49,840 nt of DNA from Spirochaetia bacterium (GTDB lineage Bacteria > Spirochaetota > UBA4802 > UBA5550), in assembly GCA_009885955.1 (NCBI GenBank), contig VFJS01000011.1, positions 1 to 49,840 on the forward strand, in the 5' to 3' direction. The notes below the pieces were generated by a model that was not told the origin of the DNA, ran no database searches, and was given only the letters and a program-made list of their open reading frames with translations. This document shows positions 298 through 41,856 of this stretch, one piece after another. Every line of letters starts with the position of its first letter. The first letter of the stretch is position 1. A program made the position numbers and the translations under genes.

Positions 298-909
298 ATG
301 AAAAGATATAGAAGTAAAATAACTGAAAATAAAATTAAAAAATATGTCTATGAAAAATATGGTCATAAATTATTTGAACATTCTTTTTCTCGTATATGGC
401 AGCATAGATCAAATGGATTTTTTATTATATCTGCCTTTCGTGGAAAATACACTGATGATGAAAATATAATAAGACATGAAAAATTAAAAAATCATTTAAA
501 ACAGAATAAATTAGGATTCTTTGAAGTTGATGGAGTCTATATTTATGATGATGGAACTAAGGATTCTGAATTAAGTTTATTTGTTCCCTTTATAAGTAAA
601 GAATACAGTTCAGACCAAATAAAAGATATTGCAATGAAAGCTGGTAAAATAATTAATCAAGAAAGTATTTTATTCAAGTACCCCGAATATGAATCAAATG
701 AGTACGTGTATTTATATCCGAATAGTAATAAAATCCAAATTGTAGGTAATAAGTTAGATTTTGATACAGTTAAGAAAGCATATTCACAATTAAGAAAAGG
801 TAGTCATGCAGGAAGAAAAGTTGCATTTGATTATGTTATGGAAGGAGTGAGATTACCGAATAATCATATTGATGCCGGTTCAATGCTGGCTGAAGGTATT
901 TTATTTTAG
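298..909 (+). CDS. DUF3293-like protein, first member of a five-paralogue array
   Basis: A 203-residue soluble protein. Residues about 40-120 follow a pattern shared with the next four genes: a strand with a small-residue turn (FIISAFRG), an Asn/Arg-rich helix (ENIIRHEKL), a strand ending in DGVYIY, and ExSxFVP. This order resembles DUF3293 (AFiTAwNP, N-x-x-R-x-x-x-L, G, E-S), but the match is by eye only. A C-terminal stretch containing KKAYSQLRKG is shared with the second and third members. The function is unknown. It is followed after 26 bases by its closest neighbour paralogue, so the array is probably co-transcribed. The gene ends in TAG, which shows that UAG is an ordinary stop here. 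Confidence 0.75.
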   Translation: MKRYRSKITENKIKKYVYEKYGHKLFEHSFSRIWQHRSNGFFIISAFRGKYTDDENIIRHEKLKNHLKQNKLGFFEVDGVYIYDDGTKDSELSLFVPFISKEYSSDQIKDIAMKAGKIINQESILFKYPEYESNEYVYLYPNSNKIQIVGNKLDFDTVKKAYSQLRKGSHAGRKVAFDYVMEGVRLPNNHIDAGSMLAEGILF

Positions 910-935
910 ATGGAATTATTAAAAAGGTTACAGTA

Positions 936-1625
936 ATGGAAAGATATAAAAAACAATTTCTTGAGAAATATTCCAGTGGGAACTTTTATGATGGTAAGTA
1001 CTGGAATTATGAGAGTCTCTTTAAAAAATCATTGAGCAAGGTTTATCAACACTTTGCTGATTCGGGATTTATTATTGGTTCAGCATTTAGACCTGTTGTT
1101 GTTGATCCTATTATACGAGAAAAAATTAATGGAGTCGAATTTGATGATGAAAATTTACGTAGACATAAATTTCTTTTGAAATGGTTAAAAAGTTTAAAAT
1201 TAGTATTTATAGTTATTGATGGGGTATGGAAAGATATAAAGACAGGTATAAAAGCTTCAGAGTTATCTGTAATGGTTCCTTACTTTGCAAAGTATACCTC
1301 TGATGAATTTTTAAACATTGCTTTACATTGGACTGCAATAGGAGAACCGGAACAAGGACATTTTTGTCAGGATGCGGTATTGGTAAAAGACCCTGATCCT
1401 AATTATGGTAAATTATTTTTACTTTCTAAAGATGAATCAACAAAAACTATTAAAGGAATCTTCAAGCCTGATCAAATTGCTGAATTTTATTCACAGTTTA
1501 AACAAAAGAATGCTAAACATATAAGTAATCATTCAGGAAGGACTTTTGTGTTTGAGGGAGTCCAGACATATGATAGATTTTATAGTAGAGATATTTTACT
1601 TCGTGAAGGACATACTTTTGTATGA
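936..1625 (+). CDS. DUF3293-like protein, second array member
   Basis: A 229-residue protein with the same plan as the first array member: FIIGSAFR, then DDENLRRHKFLLKWL, IDGVW, ASELSVMVP, and a C-terminal EFYSQFKQKN block. It carries an insertion of about 15 residues between the first strand and the Asn/Arg helix, and another (GEPEQGHFCQ) before the QDAVLV strand that in DUF3293-like proteins would carry a conserved Gln-Ala. The ribosome site is AAGG eight bases before the ATG. There is no signal peptide or membrane segment. Biochemical function is unknown; paralogy with its neighbours is the safe statement. Confidence 0.75.
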   Translation: MERYKKQFLEKYSSGNFYDGKYWNYESLFKKSLSKVYQHFADSGFIIGSAFRPVVVDPIIREKINGVEFDDENLRRHKFLLKWLKSLKLVFIVIDGVWKDIKTGIKASELSVMVPYFAKYTSDEFLNIALHWTAIGEPEQGHFCQDAVLVKDPDPNYGKLFLLSKDESTKTIKGIFKPDQIAEFYSQFKQKNAKHISNHSGRTFVFEGVQTYDRFYSRDILLREGHTFV

Positions 1626-1638
1626 TATAGAGAATTTT

Positions 1639-2229
1639 ATGAAAATTGACAATAATGAATATAAACGAAAATCAATAATATGGTATCATATAAATAATCC
1701 AGAAATATGGTTTGGGGTCATATCAGCTTATAACCATGCAAAATATTCAAATACGAAAAATAAAGAGAGGCATGATCAATTAATACAGGATGTGAATACC
1801 ATTAAGGAAATGAAATACCTCTGTATAGAACAAAGAATTACTTATAATCAACAAATTGAAAATGAAAGAAATTCTTCAACAAAGGAAGAGCTAAGCTTGT
1901 TTATCCCCCAGATTTCATTTGAAAATTGCATGAAATTATGCAAAAAATATCAATTGAGATCATACATTTACAAGGATGAAAATGGACTTGGATTGTATGA
2001 TGGAGAATCAGGATCATTAATCGAAAAATTTAAAGATTTCGAAGGGCCTCAAATCCTCAGCCAAATAGATATCGAAAAAGCCTACTCCCAATGGATCAGG
2101 GCGAAATTCAGTGAGACGATTATATTCATCGCTGTCCATGAATATTATATCCCATCCAGGCTCGCTGCCTATAGAGCTATGAAAACCAGAATACTTCCAT
2201 CAACGGAGTGGATCAGGATAGAAGGATAA
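1639..2229 (+). CDS. DUF3293-like protein, third array member
   Basis: The frame is open from 1546, but the ATG at 1639 is preferred because it clears the previous gene (stop at 1625) and gives a 196-residue protein beginning MKIDNNEYK. Shared features are GVISAYNHA, KERHDQLIQ, EELSLFIP and IEKAYSQW. It has lost the Gly between the second and third strands that its relatives keep. The last 60 codons are visibly richer in GC than the first part, as in the next gene, which hints at a recombination seam inside the array. Four bases separate its stop from the next start. Unknown function. Confidence 0.7.
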   Translation: MKIDNNEYKRKSIIWYHINNPEIWFGVISAYNHAKYSNTKNKERHDQLIQDVNTIKEMKYLCIEQRITYNQQIENERNSSTKEELSLFIPQISFENCMKLCKKYQLRSYIYKDENGLGLYDGESGSLIEKFKDFEGPQILSQIDIEKAYSQWIRAKFSETIIFIAVHEYYIPSRLAAYRAMKTRILPSTEWIRIEG

Positions 2230-2233
2230 GGCT

Positions 2234-2851
2234 ATGAAGAAAGACTTTTGCCAATCAAAAGAGCTTTCATTGCCAGAATTATGGGCATTGAATATGGTAC
2301 ATGATTGTGGAGCCATTACTTCTTACACGAAAATGGATAATAGCCCCGGGGGAGAGGGCCGTTTATTTTCTGAAAAAGAAAACCAGCAGAGAGATAAGAC
2401 CCTGCGAATAAAACTGATAAATCTGGAATATCTTGTTGTTGAGGTTCGAGGGACTATGCCAGGGTGTGAAGTGGGGTCTCCAGTTTCCTGTTATTTCGTT
2501 GCCGATCATCACGATCGGGGTGAGCTTAGTTGGGACATAACAGCGTTGGGAGAATATTTCTATCAGGGTTCTGTATTACTTGTACCCAAAAGTGGAGTGA
2601 ATAATGTTGGAGAAGGTGCATACCTTTATGGCACCAGTCATAGCATCGGTAATAAAATCGGTTATGGAGAAAAGTTTTTTCTGGATAAAAATCAATGGGG
2701 GGGTGAATCTACAATATTAACCGGATGTATAAATGGCAATCCCCTTATCTTTGATCAAGTACAAAGAATATATGGCATGCCCGGAACAGGATATGGTGTT
2801 TGGGGGCTAAGGGTGTTGGCACAAATGGACTGGTGGGAGATAAAAGTATAA
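2234..2851 (+). CDS. DUF3293-like protein, fourth array member
   Basis: A 205-residue protein aligned with its neighbours through GAITSYTK, NQQRDKTLRIKL, LEYLVVEVRG and the strand GSVLLVPKSG. It has the array's general layout but very low identity to the other members, and a Gly/Trp-rich C terminus (YGVWGLRVLAQMDWWE). It starts four bases after the previous stop, with AAGG in the intergenic bases, so it is translationally close-coupled. No catalytic motif can be picked out. The function is unknown. Confidence 0.72.
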   Translation: MKKDFCQSKELSLPELWALNMVHDCGAITSYTKMDNSPGGEGRLFSEKENQQRDKTLRIKLINLEYLVVEVRGTMPGCEVGSPVSCYFVADHHDRGELSWDITALGEYFYQGSVLLVPKSGVNNVGEGAYLYGTSHSIGNKIGYGEKFFLDKNQWGGESTILTGCINGNPLIFDQVQRIYGMPGTGYGVWGLRVLAQMDWWEIKV

Positions 2852-2870
2852 CAGTATTGGAAAGAATATC

Positions 2871-3428
2871 ATGAAAAAAAGATTTAAATTAACCAAGTTA
2901 CCGATGGTAGTTCGGATGATGCTTGGATTTATTCCAACAGTCAAAACCTTCGGAATCATAACTGGAAAAAATCCATTGGGTGTAAAGCTGTCAGTAGAAG
3001 ATAACGAGTTGCTGAACAGGGAGCTATTCTATTATCTGAGAAGTGCACATCATTCTTTCATCAAGCCTGATGATGTAATATTTGAAGATTTAGAATCCCC
3101 TTTTTTTATTGTGAATGTTGCTTTGGATGAAATGAAGGATATTGCCGTTAAGTATGAACAAAGAGGGTTCATCTTTGGGGAAAATAAAGGTCCCGGACCT
3201 TCTGTTTTTCATTATATTCAAGCAATCATTAATAATGATATGCCCCTAAAATCGTCTGATTATACAATAAACCATATCCAAATGATATTTCAAGGAACCC
3301 GATATATGGAAGATCGGTTCAATGAAAATACGAGTGAAAAATTCATTGTTCCAGTTTTAGGTAAAATCTTGAGAGTACCGAGTTTAGTTAGTACTTTTAA
3401 CTCTTGTTTTTGTCAATTTGTATTTTAA
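2871..3428 (+). pseudogene. N-terminal part of fifth array member, interrupted by the insertion sequence
   Basis: Codons 1-166 belong to a DUF3293-like paralogue (GIITGKNP, NRELFYYLRS, FFIVNVALDE, EQRGFIFG). From base 3368 the frame runs into the left end of the insertion sequence and picks up 19 unrelated residues before a stop at 3428. Removing bases 3368-5238 and one 7-bp target copy joins 2871-3367 to 5246-5501 in frame: 497 + 256 = 753 bases, a 250-residue protein. The insertion therefore looks recent, because the two halves show no further damage. The truncated product may still be made but lacks the last third. Confidence 0.85.
3361..3380. repeat. Left end of the insertion sequence: target duplication plus terminal inverted repeat
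   Basis: Bases 3361-3367 (GTAAAAT) are the left copy of the target duplication. Bases 3368-3380 (CTTGAGAGTACCG) are the left terminal inverted repeat, an exact reverse complement of the right end. Beyond 13 bases the match between the two ends becomes poor. Confidence 0.92.
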
Positions 3429-3714
3429 GAATCGATAATTCGATGCTCAAGTCGATCCATTGCTCTACCAATCGTTTGAACTTTTTATAGGCTGCAATCT
3501 GCCTGCGGGCTTCCCCCACCTCTTCCAGCCGGACATAGGCGGTATGACTTTTCATTTTGCGGGTATAGCTGATCTGCCAGTAGGAACCTTCGCCCTTCCG
3601 GGGATTCTTGTACTGGCGGGTCAATGACCCCGGCCGGAACAGACCGATTTCCCCCAACTCCTGTTTTATTTTACCGATTTTTCGTTCAATGTACTGTATC
3701 CTTTTTTTTCTCAT
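3397..3714 (-). CDS. DUF6788-like accessory protein of the insertion sequence
   Basis: A 105-residue basic protein. It shows the DUF6788 pattern: an N-terminal helix with YIERKIGKIKQEL, then RPGSLTRQY, a short turn, SYWQISYTRKMKSHTAYVRLEE, and a C-terminal helix rich in Arg/Lys (ARRQIAAYKKFKRLVEQW). The Cys pair seen in many relatives after the PGSL-x-x-QY block is absent. Such proteins are often found beside transposases; whether they regulate or assist transposition is not known to me. It is divergent from the transposase, its C-terminal end lies 17 bases from the left inverted repeat, and both promoters must share the 3715-3803 gap. Confidence 0.75.
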   Translation of the reverse strand: MRKKRIQYIERKIGKIKQELGEIGLFRPGSLTRQYKNPRKGEGSYWQISYTRKMKSHTAYVRLEEVGEARRQIAAYKKFKRLVEQWIDLSIELSILKIQIDKNKS

Positions 3715-3735
3715 CGCCTCTCCTTTTTTTGTTGC

Positions 3736-3759
3736 AGTATAGCATATACATGCTATACT
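3736..3759. promoter_or_regulatory. Perfect 10-bp-arm palindrome in the divergent IS promoter region
   Basis: AGTATAGCAT and ATGCTATACT are exact reverse complements separated by four bases (ATAC). The palindrome sits midway between the starts of the DUF6788-like gene and the transposase. It is a strong candidate operator for a dimeric repressor controlling both genes, possibly the DUF6788-like protein itself. This role is inferred from position only. Confidence 0.6.
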
Positions 3760-3803
3760 AACGGAAGAAAAATGTCAACAAAAAAACAATAGGAGAATAA
3801 ACA

Positions 3804-5207
3804 ATGATGCTCTGGAGACATTGGTGGCGGCTCGCCAGTCAACTGCACGGCGCCTGCTCGCGAACACGAACTTTTCTGTGGATGGTTATCTGCATGGCGG
3901 GAATGACGATCCGTGTGGAGTTGCTCGGCGTGACAAGCCTCGTACGCGCCCTGGGGCTAAAGCCGGCCTGTTATGACCGGATGCTGGATTTCTTTCACAG
4001 CCCGGCTTTGAATATCCAAAAGCTCACCCTGGCCTGGCGCAAGCTGGTCTTCAAACATCATCCAGGCATTCTGCGTATCGGGGGCCGACCTGTGCTCGTC
4101 GGTGACGGGATCAAGGTTGCCAAGTCCGGTCGAAAAATGCCGGCTGTCAAAAAACTCCATCAACAGTCGGAATCGAACACCAAACCAGAGTACATCTTCG
4201 GCCATTCCTGTCAGGCCGTCGCCGTACTGGCCCAGGCCTTGTTCAGCGTCGTCGCCATACCGCTGACCTGCCGCATCCACGAGGGCGTAGTTTTTTCCAA
4301 TCGCGACCGGCGAACGCTCCTGGATAAGATGATCGCTCTGGTTGACTCGCTGGACATTAGCGAATCGTTCTACTTTGTCGCCGACGCCTACTACGCCTCC
4401 GGCAAAATCGTTCGTGGGCTGCTTGACAAAGGGAACCAGCTAGTCACCAGAGTCAAGCGTAACGCGGTGGCCTATTGGCCTGCTCCGGCCCAGGGCGCGC
4501 TTCGGCACAGAGGACGTCCGAAAACATACGGCAAAAAAATTAAAGTCGTATCGTTGCTCAAGGACCAAAGCGCAATGACTGAAGCCGCCAGCCCCATTTA
4601 TGGTGAAAAAAATGTAGTCCTCCAATTCCGGACAGCCGACCTGTTATGGCGGCCGGTCGGAATTCTCGTTCGTTTCGTGGCGGTCATCCATCCGCAACGG
4701 GGCTCGATCCTGCTGATGAGCACGGACCAGAATTTGTCGCCACTGCAGATCATTCAAATCTACGGCCTGCGGTTTAAGATCGAGGTCTCCTTTAAACAAG
4801 CGCTGCGAGTCGTCGGCGCATATGCTTATCACTTCTGGATGGCCGCCATGACGCCGCTCCGACGCAAAAGCGGTAACCAACATCTACATCGAAAACCGGC
4901 AAATTACCGCGATGGTGTGCGACGAAAGATCGCGGCATATCACCGTCACATTCAACTGGGCCTGATCGCTCAGGGATTGCTTCAGATACTGTCCGCTACT
5001 GTTCCGCAGTTGGTTTGGTCCTCGTTTGGCTCCTGGCTGCGAACCATCCGTCCCGGGTTGGCTCCCTCGGAATTGGTCGTGGCGATCTCCCTGAGAAATA
5101 CGCTGCCGGAATTTCTCGCGGATACCGCGGATGCTGAAAACTTGAAGAAATTCATGCAAAAAAACATCGATCCCGCCAGGGCGGAGGGATTCCGTCTGAT
5201 CTCATGA
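3804..5207 (+). CDS. DDE transposase, IS4 superfamily-like
   Basis: A 467-residue basic protein. Candidate catalytic residues are the Asp in VLVGDGIKV (about residue 102), the Asp in FVADAYYASG (about 194), and the Glu in YGLRFKIEVSFKQ (about 330). That last block has the Y-x-x-R-x-x-x-E spacing of the IS4 YREK signature. The order of motifs, the large insert between the second Asp and the Glu, and the length fit a DDE_Tnp_1-type enzyme. The ribosome site TAGGAG lies ten bases before the ATG. Codon use is GC-rich and unlike the surrounding genes. The frame is intact, so the enzyme is probably active. It cuts and joins DNA at the 13-bp ends and duplicates 7 bp of target. Confidence 0.9.
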   Translation: MMLWRHWWRLASQLHGACSRTRTFLWMVICMAGMTIRVELLGVTSLVRALGLKPACYDRMLDFFHSPALNIQKLTLAWRKLVFKHHPGILRIGGRPVLVGDGIKVAKSGRKMPAVKKLHQQSESNTKPEYIFGHSCQAVAVLAQALFSVVAIPLTCRIHEGVVFSNRDRRTLLDKMIALVDSLDISESFYFVADAYYASGKIVRGLLDKGNQLVTRVKRNAVAYWPAPAQGALRHRGRPKTYGKKIKVVSLLKDQSAMTEAASPIYGEKNVVLQFRTADLLWRPVGILVRFVAVIHPQRGSILLMSTDQNLSPLQIIQIYGLRFKIEVSFKQALRVVGAYAYHFWMAAMTPLRRKSGNQHLHRKPANYRDGVRRKIAAYHRHIQLGLIAQGLLQILSATVPQLVWSSFGSWLRTIRPGLAPSELVVAISLRNTLPEFLADTADAENLKKFMQKNIDPARAEGFRLIS

Positions 5208-5225
5208 CAAGAATCCGTCTGAAAA

Positions 5226-5245
5226 CGGTACTCTCAAGGTAAAAT
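5226..5245. repeat. Right end of the insertion sequence: terminal inverted repeat plus target duplication
   Basis: Bases 5226-5238 (CGGTACTCTCAAG) are the exact reverse complement of the left end. Bases 5239-5245 (GTAAAAT) are the second copy of the target duplication. The final ATG-G of this duplication lets the downstream gene fragment start with an ATG at 5244. Confidence 0.92.
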
Positions 5246-5501
5246 GAAAGAGGCTATATTCAAAGACTGGTTTTTAATTGAAAGAAAATCCGGTAAAAAA
5301 ATTTATTATTATCAAGAAGAAGATGTTACTTTAGATATGAATGAAGTAGAGAAAGAGGTTTTAGAGAGGATTGAGGAAATTATCCCGGAAAACAGGACGG
5401 GGAGGTCCAGATGGGAAAGCAGGGGGATCATAAACCACCAATACAGTTATTTTAATGATGATTGGAAATCAAAAGATATTAACAAGGGGAAAAAGTTATG
5501 A
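5246..5501 (+). pseudogene. C-terminal part of the fifth array member
   Basis: This is the continuation of the gene begun at 2871. It encodes about 85 residues beginning KEAIFKDWFLIERK, very rich in Glu, Lys and Tyr. An ATG formed across the target duplication at 5244 could allow separate translation, but no ribosome site lies before it, since the preceding bases are the insertion sequence end. Read alone it would pass for a small hypothetical gene; the in-frame reconstruction shows that it is the lost third of its array paralogue. Confidence 0.85.
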
Positions 5502-5556
5502 ATCGATACTTCCTACACGTCATATTGGGAAGACTGGAATTACAGGAGAGTATTAA

Positions 5557-6081
5557 TTGAAAAACAAAAGAAAGAATGATTTCAATGATGATATACCCTC
5601 TCTCTTCGAGAAATGGCTTTCAGTCAACCGGGAGAGATTTATCCATAAACCTATAATAATGGAAAAAACTAAAGAAGGGATATCAATTAAATACGATGGG
5701 ATCATTCCTGAAATAGAGGCCTATATAAATTCGGGTGGCATGATAGTAGAAGCGAAGTTTCCCGATGATGCGATGTGGGACATGTTAAGGGACATAGATA
5801 TAGGTATAGATATAACTGATTCCGGAGAATATTTTTGTACCTGGTGTATAAATGAACATCAAAAATTATATCCAACTATTGAGGCCCTCGTATATGAACA
5901 CCTTTTTGAGGATTTTCTCCAGTGGTCCAATGAAAAAATATCAACTGAAAAATATCTTATACTTTGCAGTGTGGGGAACGGTACAACATGGGCTAAAATT
6001 ATCGATGCAGATGAAAATATTGACACAAAAAATGTCGTGGCCTTATTCTCTATGGATGAATCGTATCGGAAATGGGAGTGA
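5557..6081 (+). CDS. Unknown soluble protein, paralogue of the gene at 40944
   Basis: A 174-residue acidic protein starting at TTG, chosen because AGGAG lies eight bases upstream and because the paralogue begins at the same residue. The two copies are alike over their whole length, roughly four residues in five by eye, with invariant blocks such as FEKWL, NRERFIHKPIIM, GDIDITDSGEYFCTWC-like segments and SMDESYRKWE at the end. Four Trp and two Cys are conserved. I do not recognise the family. Its stop lies four bases from the stop of the convergent deiminase-like gene. In the second locus the same gene is directly followed by a DUF6915-like gene; here the corresponding gene is 6.5 kb away. Confidence 0.8.
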   Translation: MKNKRKNDFNDDIPSLFEKWLSVNRERFIHKPIIMEKTKEGISIKYDGIIPEIEAYINSGGMIVEAKFPDDAMWDMLRDIDIGIDITDSGEYFCTWCINEHQKLYPTIEALVYEHLFEDFLQWSNEKISTEKYLILCSVGNGTTWAKIIDADENIDTKNVVALFSMDESYRKWE

Positions 6082-6085
6082 AGTG

Positions 6086-7078
6086 TCAATATGTCCAGCT
6101 GAAGCAATTCAAAGCCCCGCCAAAATGTGACAGAGGACCTGCTTCAACCGGTATTATTTTAACATCAGGAAGATATTTATTAAACAACTCCAGTGCCTTT
6201 ATATCGGAAGGGATTCCATATACAGGCATAAAAAGACATTCTCCGGTTCGAAGAAAGTTTATATGGTTACCGAAGATCGATGGGATATGATCGATTACTT
6301 CATCAATTAGTATTGCTCCAGGAATTTTAATAATATTGAATTTATCATTGGACTGTTCTTTTATCGTTTTAACTATCCGGCTCAAATAAAAATTCTCTTT
6401 TTTCATTATGATATGAAAGCTATTAACTGCGATGGTAGTGGGAGATATAAAGCGCACATTCCCATCAATATGGCCAGTGGGGTCTTCCGGGTCTTCTTCG
6501 ATGATGATCAGATTGTTGATGCCGAGTTTTTCTTTGAAAAGCGACATTATTTCATTCTTTGAATAACCGGGATTGTCATGGAGCACCCTTGAAGTCATGA
6601 TGGCCCAGCCATTCCCGTTGTGGGTCATATTCCCGCCATCGAGTACAATGGGGATGTTGAACATGGGCTTACTTAGAATGCCGGCAATGGACCTGCCTAT
6701 GTTGTCTGATGATAGGGATTCATCTTTATGGAGATACGAGGGATTGTAGATGAATTTTACGAGAACATCCCGGCCTGTTTTGTCAACTGCATTCATTGGA
6801 GCGAAGTCCCGTATCCATATATCATGAATATCAGGATTATGTATTATCCTGAAATTGGAATTGATCTTCCCAATTTCATTATCTGGAACTGGATGCCTTG
6901 AAAAAATCATGAGCTCTTTTATTGCAGGTATTTTGCTGACAATATCTTTATAGACGGGCAAGATATTGATTCCCTGATAATACTTGTCAATACCTCCAGG
7001 CCAAACAAGGGAAATGCCGTTTTTTAATTCCCAATCCGGGAGCAGGCGTAATGGATATTTAACATTATCTTTTTCCAT
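6086..7078 (-). CDS. Agmatine deiminase / peptidyl-arginine deiminase family protein
   Basis: A 330-residue enzyme of the PPAD/agmatine deiminase family, which hydrolyses a guanidinium group (agmatine to N-carbamoylputrescine in true AguA enzymes). Family motifs in order are DIWIRDFAPM, LDGGN, DPTGHIDGNVRF and, near the C terminus, GGALNCFSW, whose Cys is the expected nucleophile. The His of TGHIDG and the acidic residues are present, so the site looks intact. The ATG at 7078 is preferred over the longer frame because GGAGG lies seven bases upstream and the family begins near there. No polyamine genes are adjacent, so the physiological substrate is uncertain. Confidence 0.88.
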   Translation of the reverse strand: MEKDNVKYPLRLLPDWELKNGISLVWPGGIDKYYQGINILPVYKDIVSKIPAIKELMIFSRHPVPDNEIGKINSNFRIIHNPDIHDIWIRDFAPMNAVDKTGRDVLVKFIYNPSYLHKDESLSSDNIGRSIAGILSKPMFNIPIVLDGGNMTHNGNGWAIMTSRVLHDNPGYSKNEIMSLFKEKLGINNLIIIEEDPEDPTGHIDGNVRFISPTTIAVNSFHIIMKKENFYLSRIVKTIKEQSNDKFNIIKIPGAILIDEVIDHIPSIFGNHINFLRTGECLFMPVYGIPSDIKALELFNKYLPDVKIIPVEAGPLSHFGGALNCFSWTY

Positions 7079-7339
7079 CAAGGTCCTCCAGTCATCTCCA
7101 AAGTATACTCGGAAGTTATAATAAAAGGTAACCCCCCAAGGGAGAGGTGGATGTTCTTTTATGATGTATAATACAATCATAAAGATGTAGATGAATAATC
7201 ATGATTCAAATCGTGGAATTTTATCGGTCACTGAATTCCAGGAAATTATTATTAGTATTTGAATAAATCACCATTTGTGTTGAAAAGTAAAAAAATTGAA
7301 TAATAATTATCTTTAACATAAATTATCAAAGGAGTTGCC

Positions 7340-8023
7340 ATGGATGCAAAAAATATTGAACTTGTTGATACAGTTATTAATCAATTCATTAAAAATTATC
7401 CCCATGAAAGATATTTCAGAGAATCTGACATTGTCTGGACGATTCAAAAGAAACTGCAGGAGAAACTTAAAGCCCCCTATAAAGTTTTCCATGAATACCC
7501 GATCAAACTGTTATACCCGATGAAAATGACATATAAAAAATGGAACGATATCATCGAATTGACTGGGTATGAAAATGATTTAGATATATATTATCATGAT
7601 GAATCCAAAAATAAAGTTCTCAATGAAGAAATCGATATAGATGAATTGAAAAGATTATTTTCAAATATTGAAATGGATGGGTCATATTTTGAGCCCTGTT
7701 ATACAGATTTATCAATCGTTAATAATAAAGCTGAATCAATTGATCTTGACAATAAACCTGAAATAGTCATCCAATGTAAATTTGAACCTGATATAAAAAA
7801 CCGCAGAGGCTTTGATTTTAGGAATAACATAAGCAACGGGATCAATAAGAAAAAGGATATACTATATGATATGAAAATCATTGATCATTGCATTAGCCAA
7901 AAATTGGTAAAATGCGGGTATTTAATAATGGTCGATGAGAGTAATAAATTTAATGAAATCTTATCCGGCAAATTTGAAAGAAGAGAGAATAATGTTTGGA
8001 TATATAAAAAATCTATGAAATAA
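7340..8023 (+). CDS. PD-(D/E)XK-like protein, paralogue of the gene at 8694
   Basis: A 227-residue protein with AGGAG five bases before the ATG. The centre has YTDLSIV (Asp) followed about 20 residues later by PEIVIQCKFE, which fits a PD-(D/E)XK core with the ExK position occupied by Gln-Cys-Lys. The paralogue at 8694 has the better motif ECK. An N-terminal block, SDIVWTIQKKLQEKL then YKVFHEYPI, is shared with the paralogue, as is the late strand GYLIMVDE. The replaced acidic residue may mean this copy is inactive or uses another ligand. It could act as a nuclease subunit or a DNA-binding partner. Confidence 0.7.
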   Translation: MDAKNIELVDTVINQFIKNYPHERYFRESDIVWTIQKKLQEKLKAPYKVFHEYPIKLLYPMKMTYKKWNDIIELTGYENDLDIYYHDESKNKVLNEEIDIDELKRLFSNIEMDGSYFEPCYTDLSIVNNKAESIDLDNKPEIVIQCKFEPDIKNRRGFDFRNNISNGINKKKDILYDMKIIDHCISQKLVKCGYLIMVDESNKFNEILSGKFERRENNVWIYKKSMK

Positions 8024-8136
8024 GTTATCAATATATTGCAATATTCTTCTTTCCCTTGAATGACTTTGGTCTTTATAATGATTATACATGGTTTTTTTAT
8101 GAGATATTCTAATAATGAATGTGGCAGGTAATAAAA

Positions 8137-8691
8137 ATGAGAAAACCCGTTTATCATCATCCAGATTTTGTCACAGAAGTTGATATGAAAGGTGATAATG
8201 AAAAACGATATTGGCTGAAACTGACTTTTGATCCGGGGGAAAGGAATAGTATTATTGTAATATTGAAAAACCCCAGCAGGGCAACTAAGGAAGTTTCGGA
8301 TAAAACGATTTACACCGTGACAAAATATATCTATTTGAAGCGAAATACAAAATTATTTAAGGACATTGGTTCCATTATCATTTTGAACCTGATCCCATAT
8401 TATGAAACTAACTCTGTAAAATTGATCAGATATGGAAATATTATTGACAAAGCCAATATCGATACAGTCAGATTATATACAAGTAAGATTTCCAGAGTGA
8501 TAATTGCCTGGGGGAATCCTCCTAATGGATTGAAAGCTGAATATGAAGAATTGAAGAGTTCAGTATTTTGTATGCTGAGAGAATATAAAAACGACATCCA
8601 TTTTATAGATAAATTGTCAAAGCTTGGGAATCCTAAGCATGGACAGGTTTGGACATATAATGATTCTATCAAAAAAATGGATAAGGAATGA
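8137..8691 (+). CDS. DUF1643 family protein
   Basis: A 184-residue protein. The DUF1643 signature is clear: IIVILKNPSRAT, then an Asp-x-Thr (SDKTIYTV), a strand leading to NLIPYYETN, and the terminal strand VIIAWGNPPN. The function of DUF1643 is not established; members are common on phages and genomic islands. The ATG at 8137 is preferred to the upstream ATG because AGG lies nine bases before it and the family begins close by. It lies between two PD-(D/E)XK-like paralogues, and its stop overlaps the start region of the second, so the three are probably one unit. Confidence 0.82.
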   Translation: MRKPVYHHPDFVTEVDMKGDNEKRYWLKLTFDPGERNSIIVILKNPSRATKEVSDKTIYTVTKYIYLKRNTKLFKDIGSIIILNLIPYYETNSVKLIRYGNIIDKANIDTVRLYTSKISRVIIAWGNPPNGLKAEYEELKSSVFCMLREYKNDIHFIDKLSKLGNPKHGQVWTYNDSIKKMDKE

Positions 8692-8693
8692 AT

Positions 8694-9446
8694 ATGATTG
8701 GAAAATTTGAAGAATGTATTGATAATTATTTTAAAAAGGAATTATGTAATAATTATGGTAAAGGTGATAATCAATTTTTTCAAGAAAATGATATTGTATG
8801 GACATTACACAAAAAACTAATTAAAGAAGTTCCTTTGCCTTATAAAGTATATAATGAATATCCAGTACTTCCTTTAGTGCCACTTATACTTAGTAGTAAA
8901 AAAGTTGAATTAATTAAAGATAATTTTAAGGATATGAATTTTGAACAATATTATGATGAAATTGGAGATAACTACATTTTAAAAAATTGGAAATTCGACT
9001 GCTGTAAACGAGAAATATTTTCATCTGTTTTTGAATCTTTAAATGCTTCAAAATTTAAAAATTATACAAATTATTTTGAACCAAAATACTTTGATCTTGT
9101 TATTGCAAAGAATCATCAATCGGAAAGACATGATTTAGAAATTTATCCAGAAATTGTAATTGAATGTAAATATGAAATAGATGAAGGTAGAAAAGGGAAG
9201 GATGTCAGATTAAGTATTGATCTTCCAAAAAATAAAATTAGTCCAATTTTAAACGATATTAAGAATGTTTGGAGTTTCTGTCAATCGCATGAAAAAAAAA
9301 TTGGATATTTTATTTTAATTGAAGAAGTAAGTTTAAAATTGATTAATCATAATAAAATTAAAGATTTAATAGAAATGCTTAATGTTAAAAGTGAAAAGTT
9401 TCATTGTAAGGATTATAATGCTATGATAATTAAAATAATGAATTAA
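8694..9446 (+). CDS. PD-(D/E)XK nuclease-like protein
   Basis: A 250-residue protein. FDLVIAK supplies the Asp and PEIVIECKYE the ExK of a PD-(D/E)XK core, and GYFILIEE is the following strand. The N-terminal region (NDIVWTLHKKL, YKVYNEYPV) matches the paralogue at 7340. An ATG six bases earlier overlaps the DUF1643 stop, but AAGGA is seven bases from the ATG at 8694, which is therefore preferred. Its codon use is more AT-rich than that of its sister gene, so the pair are old paralogues. A restriction or repair-type nuclease role is inferred. Confidence 0.72.
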   Translation: MIGKFEECIDNYFKKELCNNYGKGDNQFFQENDIVWTLHKKLIKEVPLPYKVYNEYPVLPLVPLILSSKKVELIKDNFKDMNFEQYYDEIGDNYILKNWKFDCCKREIFSSVFESLNASKFKNYTNYFEPKYFDLVIAKNHQSERHDLEIYPEIVIECKYEIDEGRKGKDVRLSIDLPKNKISPILNDIKNVWSFCQSHEKKIGYFILIEEVSLKLINHNKIKDLIEMLNVKSEKFHCKDYNAMIIKIMN

Positions 9447-9469
9447 CAATTATAGAAATAATCCCCCCA

Positions 9470-9523
9470 CCTCAACCTTCCGAGTTTAGGTCATTCCCAT
9501 ATTCAGTATATATTAGATCATAC
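9470..9523 (+). promoter_or_regulatory. Promoter-like element shared with other orphan genes
   Basis: It begins CCTCAACC and ends about 50 bases later in ATATTCAGTATATATTA-GATCATAC. The same two blocks in the same order occur on the other strand at 30819-30764, before the gene starting at 30720. It lies 100-150 bases before the DnaB-like gene. It is proposed as a promoter or operator for the DnaB/DnaE-like pair. Confidence 0.4.
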
Positions 9524-9622
9524 GTAATGTAAATGATGGGTCATCCCATTCCCAGAATTATTAATATTCTTTCTCACTGGGAAGAAATATGAGAGCTTCA
9601 ATTATTTTGGAGGATTGATATT

Positions 9623-10348
9623 ATGAGCAGCAATGATAAAATTATTGAAACTGGATACTTCGAACTGGATGATCTCACAAAGATCTTTCAGCCTTCTGAT
9701 CTGGTAGTTATAGCAGCAAGAGATCCCATGAGAATGTCTGAGTTTGTTCTGAAAATAGTAAATCAATTTATACTAAATGAAAATAAGTCTCTACTATTTT
9801 TTTCACTCAGCATGCCTGCAGTTAATTTCTGTTTACAAATGTTGGGTTGTGATGGAGAAATAAAAACAAAAGATGAGCTTGAGACAATTTTCAAGTTTTC
9901 TAAAAAAATTTCAAATGCGCCTTTGTTTGTTGATGATACATATCCAATAAATCTTGATCAATTGATAGAAAAAGTTAAAAATTTTAAACAAAAAAAATCA
10001 GTCGATATGGTTATTATTGATAACCTGCAACGTGTTACTTATAATAATTTGTCAGAAATAAATCATGGGAATGACCATATTCCAATAAAACTCAAGGAAC
10101 TTGCTATTGAACTCAGCATACCAGTTCTTGCTTTAGTGCAACTCCCGTTGGCTGTTGATATGGATGTCTTAAAGATACCAATACTTGCAGATTTAATGGA
10201 GTTCGGTAAAATCGAAATTAATGCTGATGTTGTAATTTTTGTTTATCATGAAAATATTATAAAAAGTGAACATGATAAAACAAAACCCACAAAAGTGATT
10301 GTGGCAAAAAACAGAAAGGGACCTACAAATACATACCACTTGCGATGA
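9623..10348 (+). CDS. DnaB C-terminal-domain homologue with inactivated ATP site
   Basis: A 241-residue RecA-fold protein covering only the C-terminal domain of replicative helicase DnaB. It starts TGYFELDDLTKIFQPSDLVV, the counterpart of TGFxxLDxxxxGxxPGDL. Where DnaB has AARPSMGKT, this protein has AARDPMRMS (residues 31-39), so the P-loop Gly-Lys is gone. Where DnaB has FSLEM, it has FSLSM, so the catalytic Glu is gone too. Other features are kept: MVIIDNLQ (Walker B), PVLALVQLP, LADLMEFGKIEINADVVIFVYHE and VIVAKNRKGP. It should hold the fold, and perhaps form rings, without hydrolysing ATP. There is no N-terminal primase-binding domain. Twelve bases separate it from the DnaE-like gene, so the two are probably co-expressed. 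Confidence 0.85.
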   Translation: MSSNDKIIETGYFELDDLTKIFQPSDLVVIAARDPMRMSEFVLKIVNQFILNENKSLLFFSLSMPAVNFCLQMLGCDGEIKTKDELETIFKFSKKISNAPLFVDDTYPINLDQLIEKVKNFKQKKSVDMVIIDNLQRVTYNNLSEINHGNDHIPIKLKELAIELSIPVLALVQLPLAVDMDVLKIPILADLMEFGKIEINADVVIFVYHENIIKSEHDKTKPTKVIVAKNRKGPTNTYHLR

Positions 10349-10360
10349 GGTTTATAATCC

Positions 10361-12565
10361 ATGGACTTCGTTCATCTCCACACCTATTCACAGAATTCAT
10401 TTTATGAGAGCACCATCGGATGGGGCTTGCACCATGTATGCAAAAAAAATAAGTTTAGATCAATAGCTCTTACAGACTATGAGCACCTGTATGGTATTGT
10501 TGATTTTAATAATACCTGTAAGAGGAATCATATAAAACCAATTCTTGGCCAGGTCTTCAATATCAGGTCGTTGATTAGTGAAAATAATCCTGAGCGATTA
10601 TTCAGGATACTTCTCCTGGCATCAACAGATGAAGGATATCAAAATCTCGTTAAGTTATCATCACTGAGTTGGAAATTAGATAGAAAAATTCCCTACATTG
10701 AACTTAAGCATATTTCACTTTATAATAAGGGGCTCATATGCCTCACTTCCGGCCTGGAGAGTGAAATATCCAATTATATTTTACAAAAGAACATGAAGGA
10801 GGCGGAAAAAGGAGCGTGGATGCTGAAGGATATCTTCCCAAGGGATCATATTTATCTTGAATTACAAGATCATGGACTTGCCATGGAACATGAAATGAAC
10901 AGGGGGCTGCTATCCTTATCAGTACAGCTTGATATTCCCCTAGTTGCCACGAACATGTGCAGATATCCTTACAAGGAAGATTATGAAAAATTTATCATAT
11001 TACAGAAGCTAAGGAATCCGGGCATTAATACATACAACCTTCCCAATGAATATTATGTAAAATCATCCAATGAAATGAAATATTTATTCAAGGATATTCC
11101 TGATGCCATAAGTAATACCCTGAAGATCAGTTCCATGATCGATTTTAACCTGGATGGTTTTTATTCTGATGTATTGAGAAGTGCAGAATCCATACCAGTG
11201 CTGAAAGAGAAGAAAATAGATATTAACGAAGATGATAAATGGGGACTATATTTCAGGGAACAAGTTTTCATTGAGCAGGAATTAAATAAACGGGTTATGG
11301 AAGGGGCTCGCCAGAGATATGGGAATGATATATCCGATGAAATAATATTCCTCATTGAAAAAGAGTTATCACTTTATAATTCAGATGTGGTTCGCAAAGA
11401 TATTCTCCTGCTTCACGAAATAATACAAAAGTATAAAGATAATCATTATATCCCTGGGCCCGGCCGTGGAGCCTGCCCATCCTCGATTATATTTTATTGC
11501 CTTGGCTTAACTGATGTTGACCCTGTTGCCCATGGCCTGATTATTGAACGCTTCATCAATATCAACAATTTGAAGGATTTTGATACAATTTTTTTGAACA
11601 TCAGCACCAGGGGTTGCAAGTATTTTTATGAATATGCATATGAAAAGTATGGGGAAGATTTTATATGCTCAATTCCGTCCCTGACCGATATGAAAGATCA
11701 AAAGAATATCATTGATGTCTTGTTATGGGATTTGAAATTTATACCCCACTCCCTTACTGCCCTCCCCAGGGGGTTTTATTTTTATCATAATGTGTCCTTT
11801 CCGACTTTCGAATCTAAAATCTGGAACTGGAGAATTTGCCAGTTTAATCCAGGTTCTGTTTCCGGTTTTAATAATTTACTTATGGATTTTGAATATTTGA
11901 ATGAACTTTCTGTAATAGAAACCACTATTCTGTACATCAATGAAAAGTCACCGGGATTTACTGTAAGTCATATCACAATGGAAGATGAGAAAACCATCCA
12001 GGTATTCAGGACCGGAAACACAACAGACATTTTCCAGTTTGACGATCCAGCAGCCATGGATTTTTTACAAAGGCTTAGCCCGGAAAACTTCAATGACCTC
12101 CATGCGCTTGTTTCGCTCAACAGGCCAGGCCCCATCAGCCAGGGTTGGCTTGAAAAGTTTATTCACCACAGGCATAATCCTGAGAGCATTATATATCCCC
12201 ATGATTCATTGAAAGAATTCCTCGAAAATACCAGGGGGATGTTGATTTATCAGGAACAGTTCATGCATATCGCCCATGAAATTTGCGGGCTCTCTTTAAC
12301 CGAGGCTGACAGGTTTAGAAAAGCAGGAGGGAAAAAAATATCAGCAATTACTGATTACTTTGTAAAGATCTGCATGCATCATATGATTTCGATGGGCTAT
12401 AGCAGGGATGATGCTGATAAAATTATTCAGTGGATGATATATTCTGCTGAATATCATTTTCAGAAAGCCCATGCAGTTGGTTATACCATGATATCATGGT
12501 GGATGGCATATCTGAAAGCCCATTATCCCAATGAATTTTTGAAGGCAAAGGAGATGTGCAGATAA
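10361..12565 (+). CDS. Compact DnaE-like DNA polymerase III alpha subunit homologue
   Basis: A 734-residue homologue of bacterial replicative polymerase DnaE, usually about 1,100-1,200 residues. An N-terminal PHP domain (FVHLHTYSQNSF, ALTDYEHLYG) has Tyr where two of the usual metal-binding His residues stand. The palm has PGPGRGACPSS (365-375), DFD at 406-408 where DnaE has the catalytic DFDxD, and MDFEYL with Asp509 for the third carboxylate. The fingers follow with DLHALVSLNRPGP, IYQEQFMHIAHE and FQKAHAVGYTMISWWMAYLKAHYP. The protein stops just after the fingers, so the helix-hairpin-helix, clamp-binding and OB domains are missing. Polymerase chemistry is plausible; proofreading by PHP and clamp use are doubtful. 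Confidence 0.87.
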   Translation: MDFVHLHTYSQNSFYESTIGWGLHHVCKKNKFRSIALTDYEHLYGIVDFNNTCKRNHIKPILGQVFNIRSLISENNPERLFRILLLASTDEGYQNLVKLSSLSWKLDRKIPYIELKHISLYNKGLICLTSGLESEISNYILQKNMKEAEKGAWMLKDIFPRDHIYLELQDHGLAMEHEMNRGLLSLSVQLDIPLVATNMCRYPYKEDYEKFIILQKLRNPGINTYNLPNEYYVKSSNEMKYLFKDIPDAISNTLKISSMIDFNLDGFYSDVLRSAESIPVLKEKKIDINEDDKWGLYFREQVFIEQELNKRVMEGARQRYGNDISDEIIFLIEKELSLYNSDVVRKDILLLHEIIQKYKDNHYIPGPGRGACPSSIIFYCLGLTDVDPVAHGLIIERFININNLKDFDTIFLNISTRGCKYFYEYAYEKYGEDFICSIPSLTDMKDQKNIIDVLLWDLKFIPHSLTALPRGFYFYHNVSFPTFESKIWNWRICQFNPGSVSGFNNLLMDFEYLNELSVIETTILYINEKSPGFTVSHITMEDEKTIQVFRTGNTTDIFQFDDPAAMDFLQRLSPENFNDLHALVSLNRPGPISQGWLEKFIHHRHNPESIIYPHDSLKEFLENTRGMLIYQEQFMHIAHEICGLSLTEADRFRKAGGKKISAITDYFVKICMHHMISMGYSRDDADKIIQWMIYSAEYHFQKAHAVGYTMISWWMAYLKAHYPNEFLKAKEMCR

Positions 12566-12582: not shown

Positions 12583-12870
12583 ATGAAATACGAAGATCAC
12601 TGTAAAGAATCAATCAGAATCCTGGGCAGGCCCCATGGAGAAGTCCACCAGTGGCTCGACGCCTTTGCCGGATCCAGGTCCTACGGAATGAAGCACCGTA
12701 AGAAGCGTCATCACCTGAGAGGGGTTGAAGAAGCCCGTGAATTTTTCGGCGATGAAGGAGCCAAGGCAGCCCGTCTCCATATCATATCTGACTTAAAAGA
12801 AGAGGGATGGACTGAGAAAGACCGGTTCCCAGTTGATGAAGAGGACTATGTGAGGATGGGGCTCTTTTGA
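12583..12870 (+). CDS. DUF6915-like small protein, intact copy
   Basis: A 95-residue protein with the pattern H-Q-W-L-D, then MKHRKKRHHLRGVEE, EFFGDE and HIISDL. This recalls DUF6915 (HxWxD, RHRxxxHHxxG, FG), a family of unknown function found on phages and islands. The ATG at 12583 matches the start of the second copy at 41475, which is interrupted by UAG. The many His and Arg residues suggest metal or nucleic-acid contact. It begins 17 bases after the DnaE-like gene, and the C-terminal loss in that polymerase falls just before this boundary. Confidence 0.72.
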   Translation: MKYEDHCKESIRILGRPHGEVHQWLDAFAGSRSYGMKHRKKRHHLRGVEEAREFFGDEGAKAARLHIISDLKEEGWTEKDRFPVDEEDYVRMGLF

Positions 12871-12914
12871 TATCTGGTAAATACAGGTTTTTATCATACA
12901 CACTCCACAAGCAT

Positions 12915-32581: not shown

Positions 32582-32708
32582 TTTTATTACCTGTATAGCC
32601 AATTCAACCCGGAGGGGTTAGGTCTTTTTAAAATGTATGGTATTATGATGATGTAAGGTTCAAATATATATTTTGTCCATCATTAAAATTATATGGGAGA
32701 AAATAATT

Positions 32709-35018
32709 ATGATCGGTTGTAAATCCAGCCCTAAAAGACATATTTTAAGAAAAGGAAAAATTCGATTTAAAGAAGAAATAATGGAAGCAAAGAGTGATTT
32801 CAACTTGAGAGAATATTATCTCAGGTATGCGATAAATCTTGTTGAAATCTTGGATATCAACGATAAAATGATGGAATTCATTTTCTTCATCATTAATCTG
32901 GAAGCAAGAAGAAATATCATAGATTTTATCTACAAAAAAGAAACTCCTGTAAGTGAATCTGATGATCCCAATATAGATAAATACCGGGATAATTATGATG
33001 ACATCATTGCTTCTCTCAGGCAGAGAGATCTATCAATGCATGATTTAATGTATGACATTAACAGATCAAGGGTAAAAATTGATGAGAGAGATCTAAAACG
33101 GTTTATCATCGATGTTCTGAAATCAGAACATGCACCTCTTCCGAAAGTCTCAAATAATAAATTCAAAGAAAGACTGAATGAACTGAAATATATTTTTGAT
33201 CTCGATTCCTATGATTTACAAATAATATCATTCATATACTGCACCTATTATGTAAATGCAACTAAATTCAACAACATCATGGATGATGTTGAATTTAATG
33301 ATTTTCTTCGAATTCTTTCTTCAGCATTGGAAATTCCTGTAAATATTCTTAAAAATAAATTGAAATACAGCGGGAAAATGTATCTCAGCTCCATTATCAG
33401 TAATATCTCTTTGTATAACAGGCGGAGTCAGTTTGTGGATCTTGATGAAGGGATAGCAGATTTTCTATCAGGATTGTCCGACAGGTCTTTGGTTGAGAAA
33501 TATATCAAACAAGATCGTGGAAAATCTATCGGGATAAAGAATTTTTCTATTCCAGATAATCATATCGATATCATCAAATCACTTCTTGCATCGCCTCATG
33601 GAGCGAACATACTCCTCTATGGCAAAGCCGGGACCGGGAAGACGGAGTTTGCCCGTTCCATTTCATCGATATCCGGGGAAAATATTTATCATTTACAATA
33701 TGGAGATGATAAAAACAAGCGGGGGAATAGGGGAAGCACATCAGATGCTGACAACCGGTTAATTGCCCTCACTGTTGCCATAAATACCGTAGAATCGCGG
33801 GATGGGATCCTCATCGTTGATGAGGCAGATTTTCTGCTCAATACAAGATCCATGTTCTTCAATGTCAGTTCAGCAGTTGAAAAAGGCTGGCTGAACAATC
33901 TTCTTGATAAATCCCATGCAAAAATTATCTGGATCACCAATGAAGTGGGTTTGATGGAGGAGTCCACATTGAGGAGATTTTCATACAGTCTCTATTTCGA
34001 TGAGTTTACTGACACTGACAGGTCAAATATATGGATGAATCTCATTAAAAAGCATCCGTGTAAAAAATATATTTCTAAAACTACAATTGAAAAGCTTTCC
34101 ACTGATTATTCTGTCAATGCCGGAGGGATAGCCTCGTCCCTTGATGCAGTTGCCAGGATTTTTTCCGGTAAACATCCGGAGAAAAAGGAGATAGAAACAG
34201 TACTCCGGGATCTGTTAGAAAAGCATGAATCCCTTACCAGGGGGACCTTTGGAGGGAAGAAGAAAGATTCTCTTTTTAAGCTGACCGATAAGTATGACCT
34301 CTCTGCGCTCAATATGAACATGGATAAAGAACGCCTATTATCATCTGTCCAGAAATTTACCCATTCCTTGAAGAATACCAAAGATGCCCAGATGAATATG
34401 AACCTCCTCTTCTGGGGGCCTCCAGGTACAGGTAAGACAGAATTTGCCAAATATATTGCTGAACAATCATCAATGAAACTGATTTATAAGCGCTATTCCG
34501 ACCTTGAATCCCCATACGTAGGAGTTACAGAACAGAACATTGCCCAGGCCTTTAGAAAGGCGTCAGCTGATATGGCCATTCTTTTCATCGATGAGGCAGA
34601 TTCATTTTTTACTTCAAGAGATAGTGCCCACAGGTCCTGGGAAGTGAGCCGTACAAACGAGTTCCTTACACAAATGGAAAATTTCACTGGAATTCTTATC
34701 TGTTGCACCAATCTCCTCGCCACTCTGGACAGCGCTGCCATGAGGCGTTTTACATGGAAAGTGGAATTCAAGTATCTATCCAATGATGCAAAAATTAGTC
34801 TTTACAGAAAATACTTTAATATCGCGGGAGTTGCCCTGCCTGATGAACTGAAGAAGAGAATTATGAACATCCCCAATCTAACTCCCGGAGATTTTAAAGC
34901 TGTATGGCAGAAATTCAATTATATGCCTGAAGAGGGATTATCGCATGATGAAATAGTTTCTGAGCTGGAGAATGAAGTATCATATAAGTCTAATGAAAAA
35001 GCCATAGGGTTCAGTTAG
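32709..35018 (+). CDS. Tandem AAA+ ATPase
   Basis: A 769-residue protein with an unrecognised helical N terminus of about 280 residues and two AAA+ modules. Module one has GKAGTGKT (305-312) and ILIVDEADFLL; module two has GPPGTGKT (570-577), LFIDEADSFF and an arginine-finger-like AAMRRF. Both sites look complete. The arrangement recalls Cdc48/ClpA-type ring remodellers, but there is no protease motif. The ATG at 32709 has GGGAGA upstream and is preferred over the frame start at 32673. It ends in TAG. With the divergent WYL regulator it makes a plausible, poorly described regulated unit. Confidence 0.85.
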   Translation: MIGCKSSPKRHILRKGKIRFKEEIMEAKSDFNLREYYLRYAINLVEILDINDKMMEFIFFIINLEARRNIIDFIYKKETPVSESDDPNIDKYRDNYDDIIASLRQRDLSMHDLMYDINRSRVKIDERDLKRFIIDVLKSEHAPLPKVSNNKFKERLNELKYIFDLDSYDLQIISFIYCTYYVNATKFNNIMDDVEFNDFLRILSSALEIPVNILKNKLKYSGKMYLSSIISNISLYNRRSQFVDLDEGIADFLSGLSDRSLVEKYIKQDRGKSIGIKNFSIPDNHIDIIKSLLASPHGANILLYGKAGTGKTEFARSISSISGENIYHLQYGDDKNKRGNRGSTSDADNRLIALTVAINTVESRDGILIVDEADFLLNTRSMFFNVSSAVEKGWLNNLLDKSHAKIIWITNEVGLMEESTLRRFSYSLYFDEFTDTDRSNIWMNLIKKHPCKKYISKTTIEKLSTDYSVNAGGIASSLDAVARIFSGKHPEKKEIETVLRDLLEKHESLTRGTFGGKKKDSLFKLTDKYDLSALNMNMDKERLLSSVQKFTHSLKNTKDAQMNMNLLFWGPPGTGKTEFAKYIAEQSSMKLIYKRYSDLESPYVGVTEQNIAQAFRKASADMAILFIDEADSFFTSRDSAHRSWEVSRTNEFLTQMENFTGILICCTNLLATLDSAAMRRFTWKVEFKYLSNDAKISLYRKYFNIAGVALPDELKKRIMNIPNLTPGDFKAVWQKFNYMPEEGLSHDEIVSELENEVSYKSNEKAIGFS

Positions 35019-40837: not shown

Positions 40838-40943
40838 ATATTATTAAAGAGAGGGGAAATGGGGAAATTAGTTGTTTTTTTAGATGATCTTAAATAATTA
40901 AGGATTATGTTTCAATTGATAATTAGAATTTGGATGCCCATAA

Positions 40944-41465
40944 ATGAAAAAATCGAAAAAAAATTTTAATGATGATATAATTTCACTGTTTGAAAAATGG
41001 CTTCCTGTCAATCGGGAGAGATTTATCCATAAACCAATAATAATGAAAAAAAGTAAAGACGGCATAAGTATTAAATATGAAGGTATTATTCCTGAAATAG
41101 AGGCTTATGTAAATTCAGGGGGCATGTTAGTAGAAGCAATGTTTCCCGATGATACAAATTGGGACATGTTACGGGACATTGATATTGGAATCGATATAAC
41201 CGATTCCGGAGAATATTTTTGTACCTGGTGTATAAATGAACATCAAAAATTGTATGCTACCATTGAGGACCTTGTATATGAACATCTATTTGAAGATTTT
41301 CTTGATTGGTCCAATAAAAAAGTTTTAGCAACGAAATATCTTATGCTTTGCAGTGTGGGACATGGTACAACATGGGCTAAAATTATCGATAAAGATGATA
41401 ATATAAATTTAAAAAATGTTGTAGCCTTCTTCTCAATGGATGAATCATACCGGAAATGGGAATAA
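40944..41465 (+). CDS. Unknown soluble protein, paralogue of the gene at 5557
   Basis: A 173-residue protein matching the gene at 5557 end to end, including NRERFIHKPIIMKKSK, WDMLRDIDIGIDITDSGEY, FCTWCINEHQKLYATIE and SMDESYRKWE. It uses ATG where the first copy uses TTG. Nine bases separate its stop from a DUF6915-like gene, so in this locus the two relatives of distant genes (5557 and 12583) sit side by side. That adjacency is probably the ancestral order. The function is unknown. Confidence 0.8.
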   Translation: MKKSKKNFNDDIISLFEKWLPVNRERFIHKPIIMKKSKDGISIKYEGIIPEIEAYVNSGGMLVEAMFPDDTNWDMLRDIDIGIDITDSGEYFCTWCINEHQKLYATIEDLVYEHLFEDFLDWSNKKVLATKYLMLCSVGHGTTWAKIIDKDDNINLKNVVAFFSMDESYRKWE

Positions 41466-41474
41466 TATAAAAAA

Positions 41475-41762: not shown

Positions 41763-41856
41763 TATTAATTTCATTAGCTCTTCTCAGTTTCATTCATATT
41801 GAATTTAAAATTATCATCCCATGGAATACCTTTAAGAATAAATCAAATAAATAATA

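Follow-up and report, generated by a model that had tools for sequence, protein, structure and literature searches.

Two genes encoding replication-type proteins stand next to each other on the forward (+) strand of the window, the whole stretch of 49,840 nucleotides analysed here, which is contig C58 of a 4.77-Mb draft genome (completeness 98%). As the earlier note had pointed out, 12 bases separate their open reading frames (9623-10348 and 10361-12565). The first encodes a relative of the replicative helicase DnaB (named DnaB') and the second a relative of DNA polymerase III alpha (named DnaE'); the same genome encodes a complete DnaB, on contig C25, and a complete DnaE, on contig C31. The features of the locus are as follows:

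9609-9614, +, ribosome-binding site GGAGGA of the DnaB' gene (read in the sequence)
9623-10348, +, DnaB', DnaB motor (C-terminal) domain only, 241 aa, ATP site dead (ORF, Pfam, AlphaFold, Foldseek)
9713-9739, +, degenerate Walker A AARDPMRMS, in own DnaB ASRPGMGKT (alignment)
9809-9811, +, Ser63 codon in place of the catalytic Glu, FSLEM to FSLSM (alignment)
10361-12565, +, DnaE', truncated Pol III alpha relative, 734 aa (ORF, Pfam, Foldseek)
10361-11155, +, PHP domain of DnaE', 7 of 9 metal ligands lost (alignment)
11276-11665, +, first palm segment of DnaE', GPGRGS to GPGRGA, D406 and D408 kept (alignment)
11666-11881, +, region of DnaE' without thumb and part of the palm, residues 436-507 predicted disordered (alignment, AlphaFold)
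11882-12547, +, fingers segment of DnaE', 36 of 53 canonical-invariant residues kept, D509 present (alignment, AlphaFold)
12583 to about 12870, +, small DUF6915 gene 3' of DnaE' (Pfam; second copy at 41475-41765)

The DUF6915 gene is probably a separate cassette outside the pair, because a second copy of it is found in the window (12583-12873 and 41475-41765, 79% DNA identity). Small genes are likewise duplicated at 5554-6077 and 40941-41461 (83% DNA identity), and 40941-41765 forms a two-gene cassette whose members are also found on their own, in one case immediately 3' of DnaE'. The pair lies in an accessory region rich in defence-type genes. The window carries a type I restriction system with a RhuM gene, a NERD-helicase, an AlbA_2 protein, a WYL regulator, S-AdoMet-lyase-like genes and a double AAA protein with an IetA-like match (32673-35018, 781 aa, two AAA domains, similar to IetA in part), and a transposase is present in the region. 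No PADLOC model was matched by DnaB' or DnaE' at 1e-5.

Other gene groups of the window deserve mention in their own right. Five successive short genes of similar size occupy 298-3428, the first two matching the S-AdoMet lyase family PF23780 and the fifth, weakly, DUF3293; possibly the five arose as a tandem array and encode related proteins. Just upstream of DnaB', a DUF1643 gene is flanked by two genes (7340-8023 and 8688-9446) for related, uncharacterized proteins, in each of which a PD-(D/E)XK-like E-x-C-K stretch can be seen by eye. Two pairs of adjoining paralogous genes are found at 46310-47972 and 48001-48708.

DnaB' and DnaE' compared with complete DnaB and DnaE

The earlier note had proposed that both proteins be searched with HMMs and that the structure of DnaB' alone be predicted, and both were carried out here. 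DnaB' matches Pfam DnaB_C (1.7e-49). In an alignment with 11 DnaB sequences of the family, the GMGKT of the P-loop has become PMRMS and the catalytic Glu has become Ser, so that the earlier description of the protein as dead at its ATP site is borne out. In the same alignment DnaB' has lost the Tyr of VDYLQ and nine further residues by deletion, SRAVE reads PLAVD, with loss of the arginine, and RESGAIEQDAD is mostly changed, to MEFGKIEINAD; the lysine and the arginine of the AKQR motif are retained. The N-terminal collar/primase-binding domain is missing from the open reading frame, and no remnant of it was found upstream. The AlphaFold model shows a RecA-like fold (mean pLDDT 77, pTM 0.80), and Foldseek returned DnaB structures for it. 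The claim that the rest of the fold is conserved therefore holds for the RecA-like fold but not for the absent N-terminal domain, the nine deleted residues or the two invariant stretches that have changed.

DnaB' is 38% identical to the DnaB of its own genome, which it matches at 150 bits as against 120 bits or less for phage and plasmid proteins among the matches listed, and this fits descent of DnaB' from the host lineage. It falls below the cut-off of the NCBIfam DnaB equivalog TIGR00665 (170 bits vs 385), and neither the Walker A sequence GxxGxGKT nor the catalytic Glu by which a DnaB helicase is recognised is found in it. The search for further copies covered the family of 20 genomes and phage, plasmid and viral-contig collections: no other DnaB' was found in the family, where all remaining DnaB matches were canonical genes, and no close relative was found in the collections. 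Conserved adjacency of the two genes, the lack of which the earlier note had named as a refutation, thus failed, DnaB' being present in no other genome searched.

DnaE' matches Pfam PHP, part of DNA_pol3_alpha (positions 1-147 of 260) and DNA_pol3_finger, all over cut-off, and Foldseek placed its model with Pol III alpha (1e-39). It is 33-38% identical to spirochaete DnaE, scores above TIGR00594 (450, cut-off 434) and lies below the equivalog PRK05673 (475 vs 1002). In the PHP domain seven of the nine metal ligands are changed (D16E, H41Y, E66V, H90R, C140G, D208M and H210R, own-DnaE numbering), and the sequence does not follow the motif HHDHEH[C/H]DH of the PHP nuclease/proofreader (PMC12926913). 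The nucleotide-binding Ser of the GS motif is lost (GPGRGS to GPGRGA), and D406, D408 and D509 align with E. coli D401, D403 and D555, so that all three catalytic Asp are retained. E. coli residues 438-537, which we take to be mostly thumb (thumb 433-510), are replaced by about 47 residues; AlphaFold predicts PHP and fingers confidently and residues 436-507 as disordered. The protein ends immediately past AYLKAHYPNEF, and therefore the (HhH)2, OB and C-terminal domains are absent; no C-terminal DnaE remnant was found downstream, and a pattern search of DnaE' found no clamp-binding motif. What the earlier note had called a compact DnaE polymerase is thus a DnaE relative, but one that has lost the PHP site, the GS Ser, the thumb and the C-terminal half. 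Because of these losses we expect DnaE' to be without polymerase or nuclease activity, a prediction from sequence and model; some residual polymerase activity is conceivable, the three Asp being still aligned.

A 2013 survey of the C family found D401, D403 and D555 to be absolutely conserved, and PHP and (HhH)2 to be nearly universal, having excluded sequences without an intact active site (PMC3919608). In a 2026 survey, strongly diverged or truncated sequences were discarded before trees were built (PMC12926913). The view that the C family always keeps its catalytic residues may stem from such surveys dropping broken or truncated sequences.

Truncated DnaE copies in other spirochaetes

Close relatives of DnaE' were absent from 59 related genomes, from 46 genomes of the order and from phage, plasmid and viral contigs, and single-protein scans of viral and genome contigs gave no matches. 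Among 393 genomes of the phylum, two DnaE' relatives were found (L101 and L103), with a third copy (L104) as a partial match. Several candidates were set aside: the DnaE matches in viral-contig alignments retain the thumb, judged by their lengths, the short DnaE frames in G005, G036, G064, G070 and G080 are contig ends, and that in G195 probably reflects a canonical gene whose frame is broken.

Four other spirochaete genomes hold DnaE copies that are dead or heavily damaged. Those of L101 and L103 have 725 and 708 aa, and that of L209 has 793 aa and is followed, with an ATGA overlap (translational coupling), by a 426-aa copy made up of PHP plus a fragment. The fourth begins on L104 (L104:13415-15271), with its likely end on L213 (L213:1-675), which we infer from the contig overlap to be one gene; a complete DnaE is encoded close to it on L104. 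The later part of this copy is, in the stretch seen, identical to the complete dnaE, pointing to gene conversion or to a break of the assembly at a repeat. All five copies, that of the window included, terminate just past the fingers motif. The Ser of GPGRGS (replaced by A, N, F, P or T) and H41 are lost in all five, and D16, H90 and D208 in four of five each (D16 is kept in L103, H90 in L209 and D208 in L101). All three polymerase Asp are lost in L103, and D401 in L209. L209 and L104 still have the thumb region, which has been deleted from the copies of the window, L101 and L103. The neighbours differ in every genome, so no conserved system is visible: L103 adjoins a WYL regulator, a RecT-like gene and a Mu Gam-like gene, L101 an AAA/DUF4143 gene, and the coupled L209 copies (7021-10679) lie 29 bases upstream of genes for a PD-(D/E)XK protein and a UvrD-type helicase (AddB/AddA-like, 1219-6992).

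Where their origin can be placed, the copies resemble the DnaE of their own lineage. L103 and L209 are closest to the DnaE of their own family (54-55% for L103), the L104 copy to the neighbouring DnaE (65%) and L101 to the DnaE of its own order (44-48%). The window copy stands on a very long branch. A single common origin of all DnaE' is rejected by AU tests (p 6e-69 for a clade of all five), as are groupings of the window copy with L101 and L103 (p 3e-4), of the window copy with L103 (p 0.02) and of L101, L103 and L209 (p 0.003); sisterhood of the window copy and L101 is not rejected (p 0.44). By these sequence comparisons, at least three separate derivations of DnaE' from resident DnaE are needed, and the data support the view that dead, truncated DnaE copies recur as a class.

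A second locus in the genome and signs of selection

Contig C44 of the same genome (L036) encodes a 239-aa PHP-only protein, 45% identical to the PHP domain of the window DnaE' and sharing with it several derived changes (HLHxYS, SFYxS, QVFNI and C to G). Downstream, at a distance of 68 bases, lies a gene for a protein consisting of DnaA domain III only (DnaA'), near which no remnants of other DnaA domains were found. DnaA' is 75% identical to the host DnaA, closer than any other DnaA found in 44 genomes. Its Walker A and B motifs are intact, and at what we take to be the Arg-finger position R has become Q. Pairwise comparison with host DnaA gives a dN of 0.17 and a dS above 1, and 43 amino-acid changes fall on the DnaA' branch as against 8 on the DnaA branch; judged from these substitutions, DnaA' is under relaxed, not absent, constraint. 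No promoter common to this locus and the window pair was found, and the genome holds no extra copies of the clamp (DnaN). The two DnaE'-bearing contigs also have in common an HTH gene (93% identical; C58, 26961-27391, and C44, L036:6524-6954), and C44 carries a type III CRISPR Cas10/Cmr2 gene at L036:3657-5879.

The earlier note had argued for selection rather than decay, and three lines of evidence agree with it. In neutral simulations, in which canonical genes were decayed to the observed identity (over the DnaE region, for DnaE), mean stop counts were 17-32 for the five DnaE' frames, with a minimum of 11, against none observed, and 6.4 for DnaB', again against none (chance of none about 0.005); these figures are rough owing to the simple mutation model, and the margin is large. 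The PHP domains of the window and of C44, both already dead, differ by 0.33, 0.25 and 0.59 at codon positions 1, 2 and 3, and this third-position excess indicates that protein constraint persisted after the active site was lost. Dead DnaE copies, finally, occur in parallel in other lineages. On this evidence from sequence comparison, DnaB' and DnaE' appear to be kept by selection and not to be decaying.

Possible roles and comparison with known systems

Because similar broken polymerase copies are kept independently elsewhere, DnaB' and DnaE' probably act by binding and not by copying DNA; with a preserved fold and lost catalysis as the constant features, function by binding is the simplest reading. 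The explanation towards which we lean, giving it somewhat less than an even chance, is that the two proteins are selected pseudoenzyme mimics of replisome parts, most likely decoys or titrants. Own replication proteins would have been copied, stripped of catalysis and cut down to their folding and binding parts, and their DnaB-like and Pol III alpha-like surfaces would draw off phage or mobile-element hijackers and inhibitors of the replisome; alternatively, the copies would titrate replisome partners. Phage proteins that bind a host replication factor are exemplified by the helicase-loader inhibitor of S. aureus (PMC4887207). Decoying or titration of proteins that capture DnaA, DnaB or Pol III alpha would account for the copying of three different replication proteins, for the shortness of the copies and for their accessory location. 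We infer binding, its targets and any protective benefit alike, and the replisome decoy or defence role already raised in the earlier note is compatible with the evidence. The type I restriction system and other defence-type genes of the window speak for it; against decoys speak the variable neighbours of DnaE' (DnaB', DnaA', a WYL regulator, AAA/DUF4143, UvrD with PD-(D/E)XK) and the fact that defence genes are common in any accessory region.

The copies might instead be functionless relics, partial duplications of dnaB, dnaE and dnaA in slow decay. An ortholog of the pair is absent from the other genomes searched, the branches are long and constraint is relaxed, the C44 copy is reduced to a PHP domain and neighbours are never alike, all of which relics would explain; yet frames of 241, 734, 725, 708 and 793 codons hold no stops where neutral means are 6-32, two dead PHP copies show the third-position excess, the same cut point and lost residues recur across separate lineages and the tandem L209 copies are translationally coupled, so that we consider decay rather unlikely. 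We also think it unlikely that the truncated proteins are internal regulators that join or titrate host complexes, in the way that the DnaA-domain-III-like Hda does with DnaA, and so tune initiation or fork progression, even though the three copied proteins are all host replication factors, DnaA' is a domain-III core with intact Walker motifs and an altered Arg-finger position, and both the lysine and the arginine of AKQR are still present in DnaB'. A core regulator would not be expected to be so patchily distributed, to lie in accessory regions and to evolve so fast, DnaA' scores below the Hda model cut-off, and DnaB' lacks the N-terminal collar as DnaE' lacks the clamp- and tau-binding parts.

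A weapon of a phage or mobile element, whose dominant-negative replisome parts would block the host's replication to the element's advantage, agrees with the RecT-like and Mu Gam-like genes beside L103 and with the accessory, transposase-bearing region of the window. We regard it as improbable: DnaE' copies of placeable origin derive from the DnaE of the resident lineage, searches of phage, plasmid and viral contigs gave no close relatives, and no phage structural genes were recognised within the window. Least credible of all is the module resembling ImuA-ImuB-DnaE2 that the earlier note had suggested, in which an active, mutagenic DnaE' would work with DnaB' as a scaffold. A RecA-fold pseudo-ATPase does adjoin a DnaE-type protein in which D401, D403 and D555 align, but that protein lacks the GS Ser, thumb, (HhH)2, OB and C-terminal domains and, by pattern, a clamp-binding motif; it scores 252 bits against a DnaE2 model cut-off of 939, no DnaE2 was found in the genome, the window has no ImuB- or ImuA-like neighbours, and the partner is a relative of DnaB, not of RecA. 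A mutasome or active polymerase is therefore not supported.

Should decoys be the right explanation, spirochaetes might repeatedly convert dnaE, dnaB and dnaA into non-catalytic proteins that absorb phage and mobile-element proteins targeting the replisome, a generalization we hold to be doubtful. If true, it would describe a general decoy strategy in bacterial immunity, rebuilt in each lineage by truncation and loss of the active site, and DnaE' copies protecting against hijackers would lead straight to the phage proteins by which the replisome is attacked; if the copies regulate replication instead, they would add a further level of control not described before. Among polymerases, inactive relatives are known for the Y and X families. 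The present copies argue that C-family pseudoenzymes exist as well and arise repeatedly from resident DnaE, the same features being lost each time; in the literature searched, whose coverage is incomplete, we met with no account of inactive, truncated DnaE copies like these.

Among known systems, the split-intein DnaE of cyanobacteria also has an N-terminal DnaE piece, with an end near residue 775, but its split lies about 28 residues earlier, within GFNKSH, and the DnaE' locus has no intein or separate C-half. We rejected a split-intein origin on these grounds and because a complete DnaE is encoded elsewhere in the genome. The ImuA-ImuB-DnaE2 mutasome likewise sets a pseudoenzyme beside a DnaE-type protein, but the present pair is without ImuB, its pseudoenzyme is a DnaB copy and its polymerase is not competent by domain content. 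Hda, like DnaA', corresponds to DnaA domain III without the DNA-binding domain; DnaA' differs in having been copied late from the resident DnaA (75%), in its changed Arg-finger position and in scoring below the Hda equivalog cut-off (114 vs 194.8). With the replicative helicase DnaB, DnaB' shares the RecA-like motor domain, and differs in its altered loops and in the loss of the N-terminal domain, P-loop and catalytic Glu. Finally, DnaE' has the PHP-palm-fingers order and the aligned catalytic Asp of Pol III alpha (DnaE1, C family), from which it departs in its broken PHP site, in the loss of the GS Ser and the thumb, and in its truncation past the initial part of the fingers, before (HhH)2, OB and the C-terminal domain.
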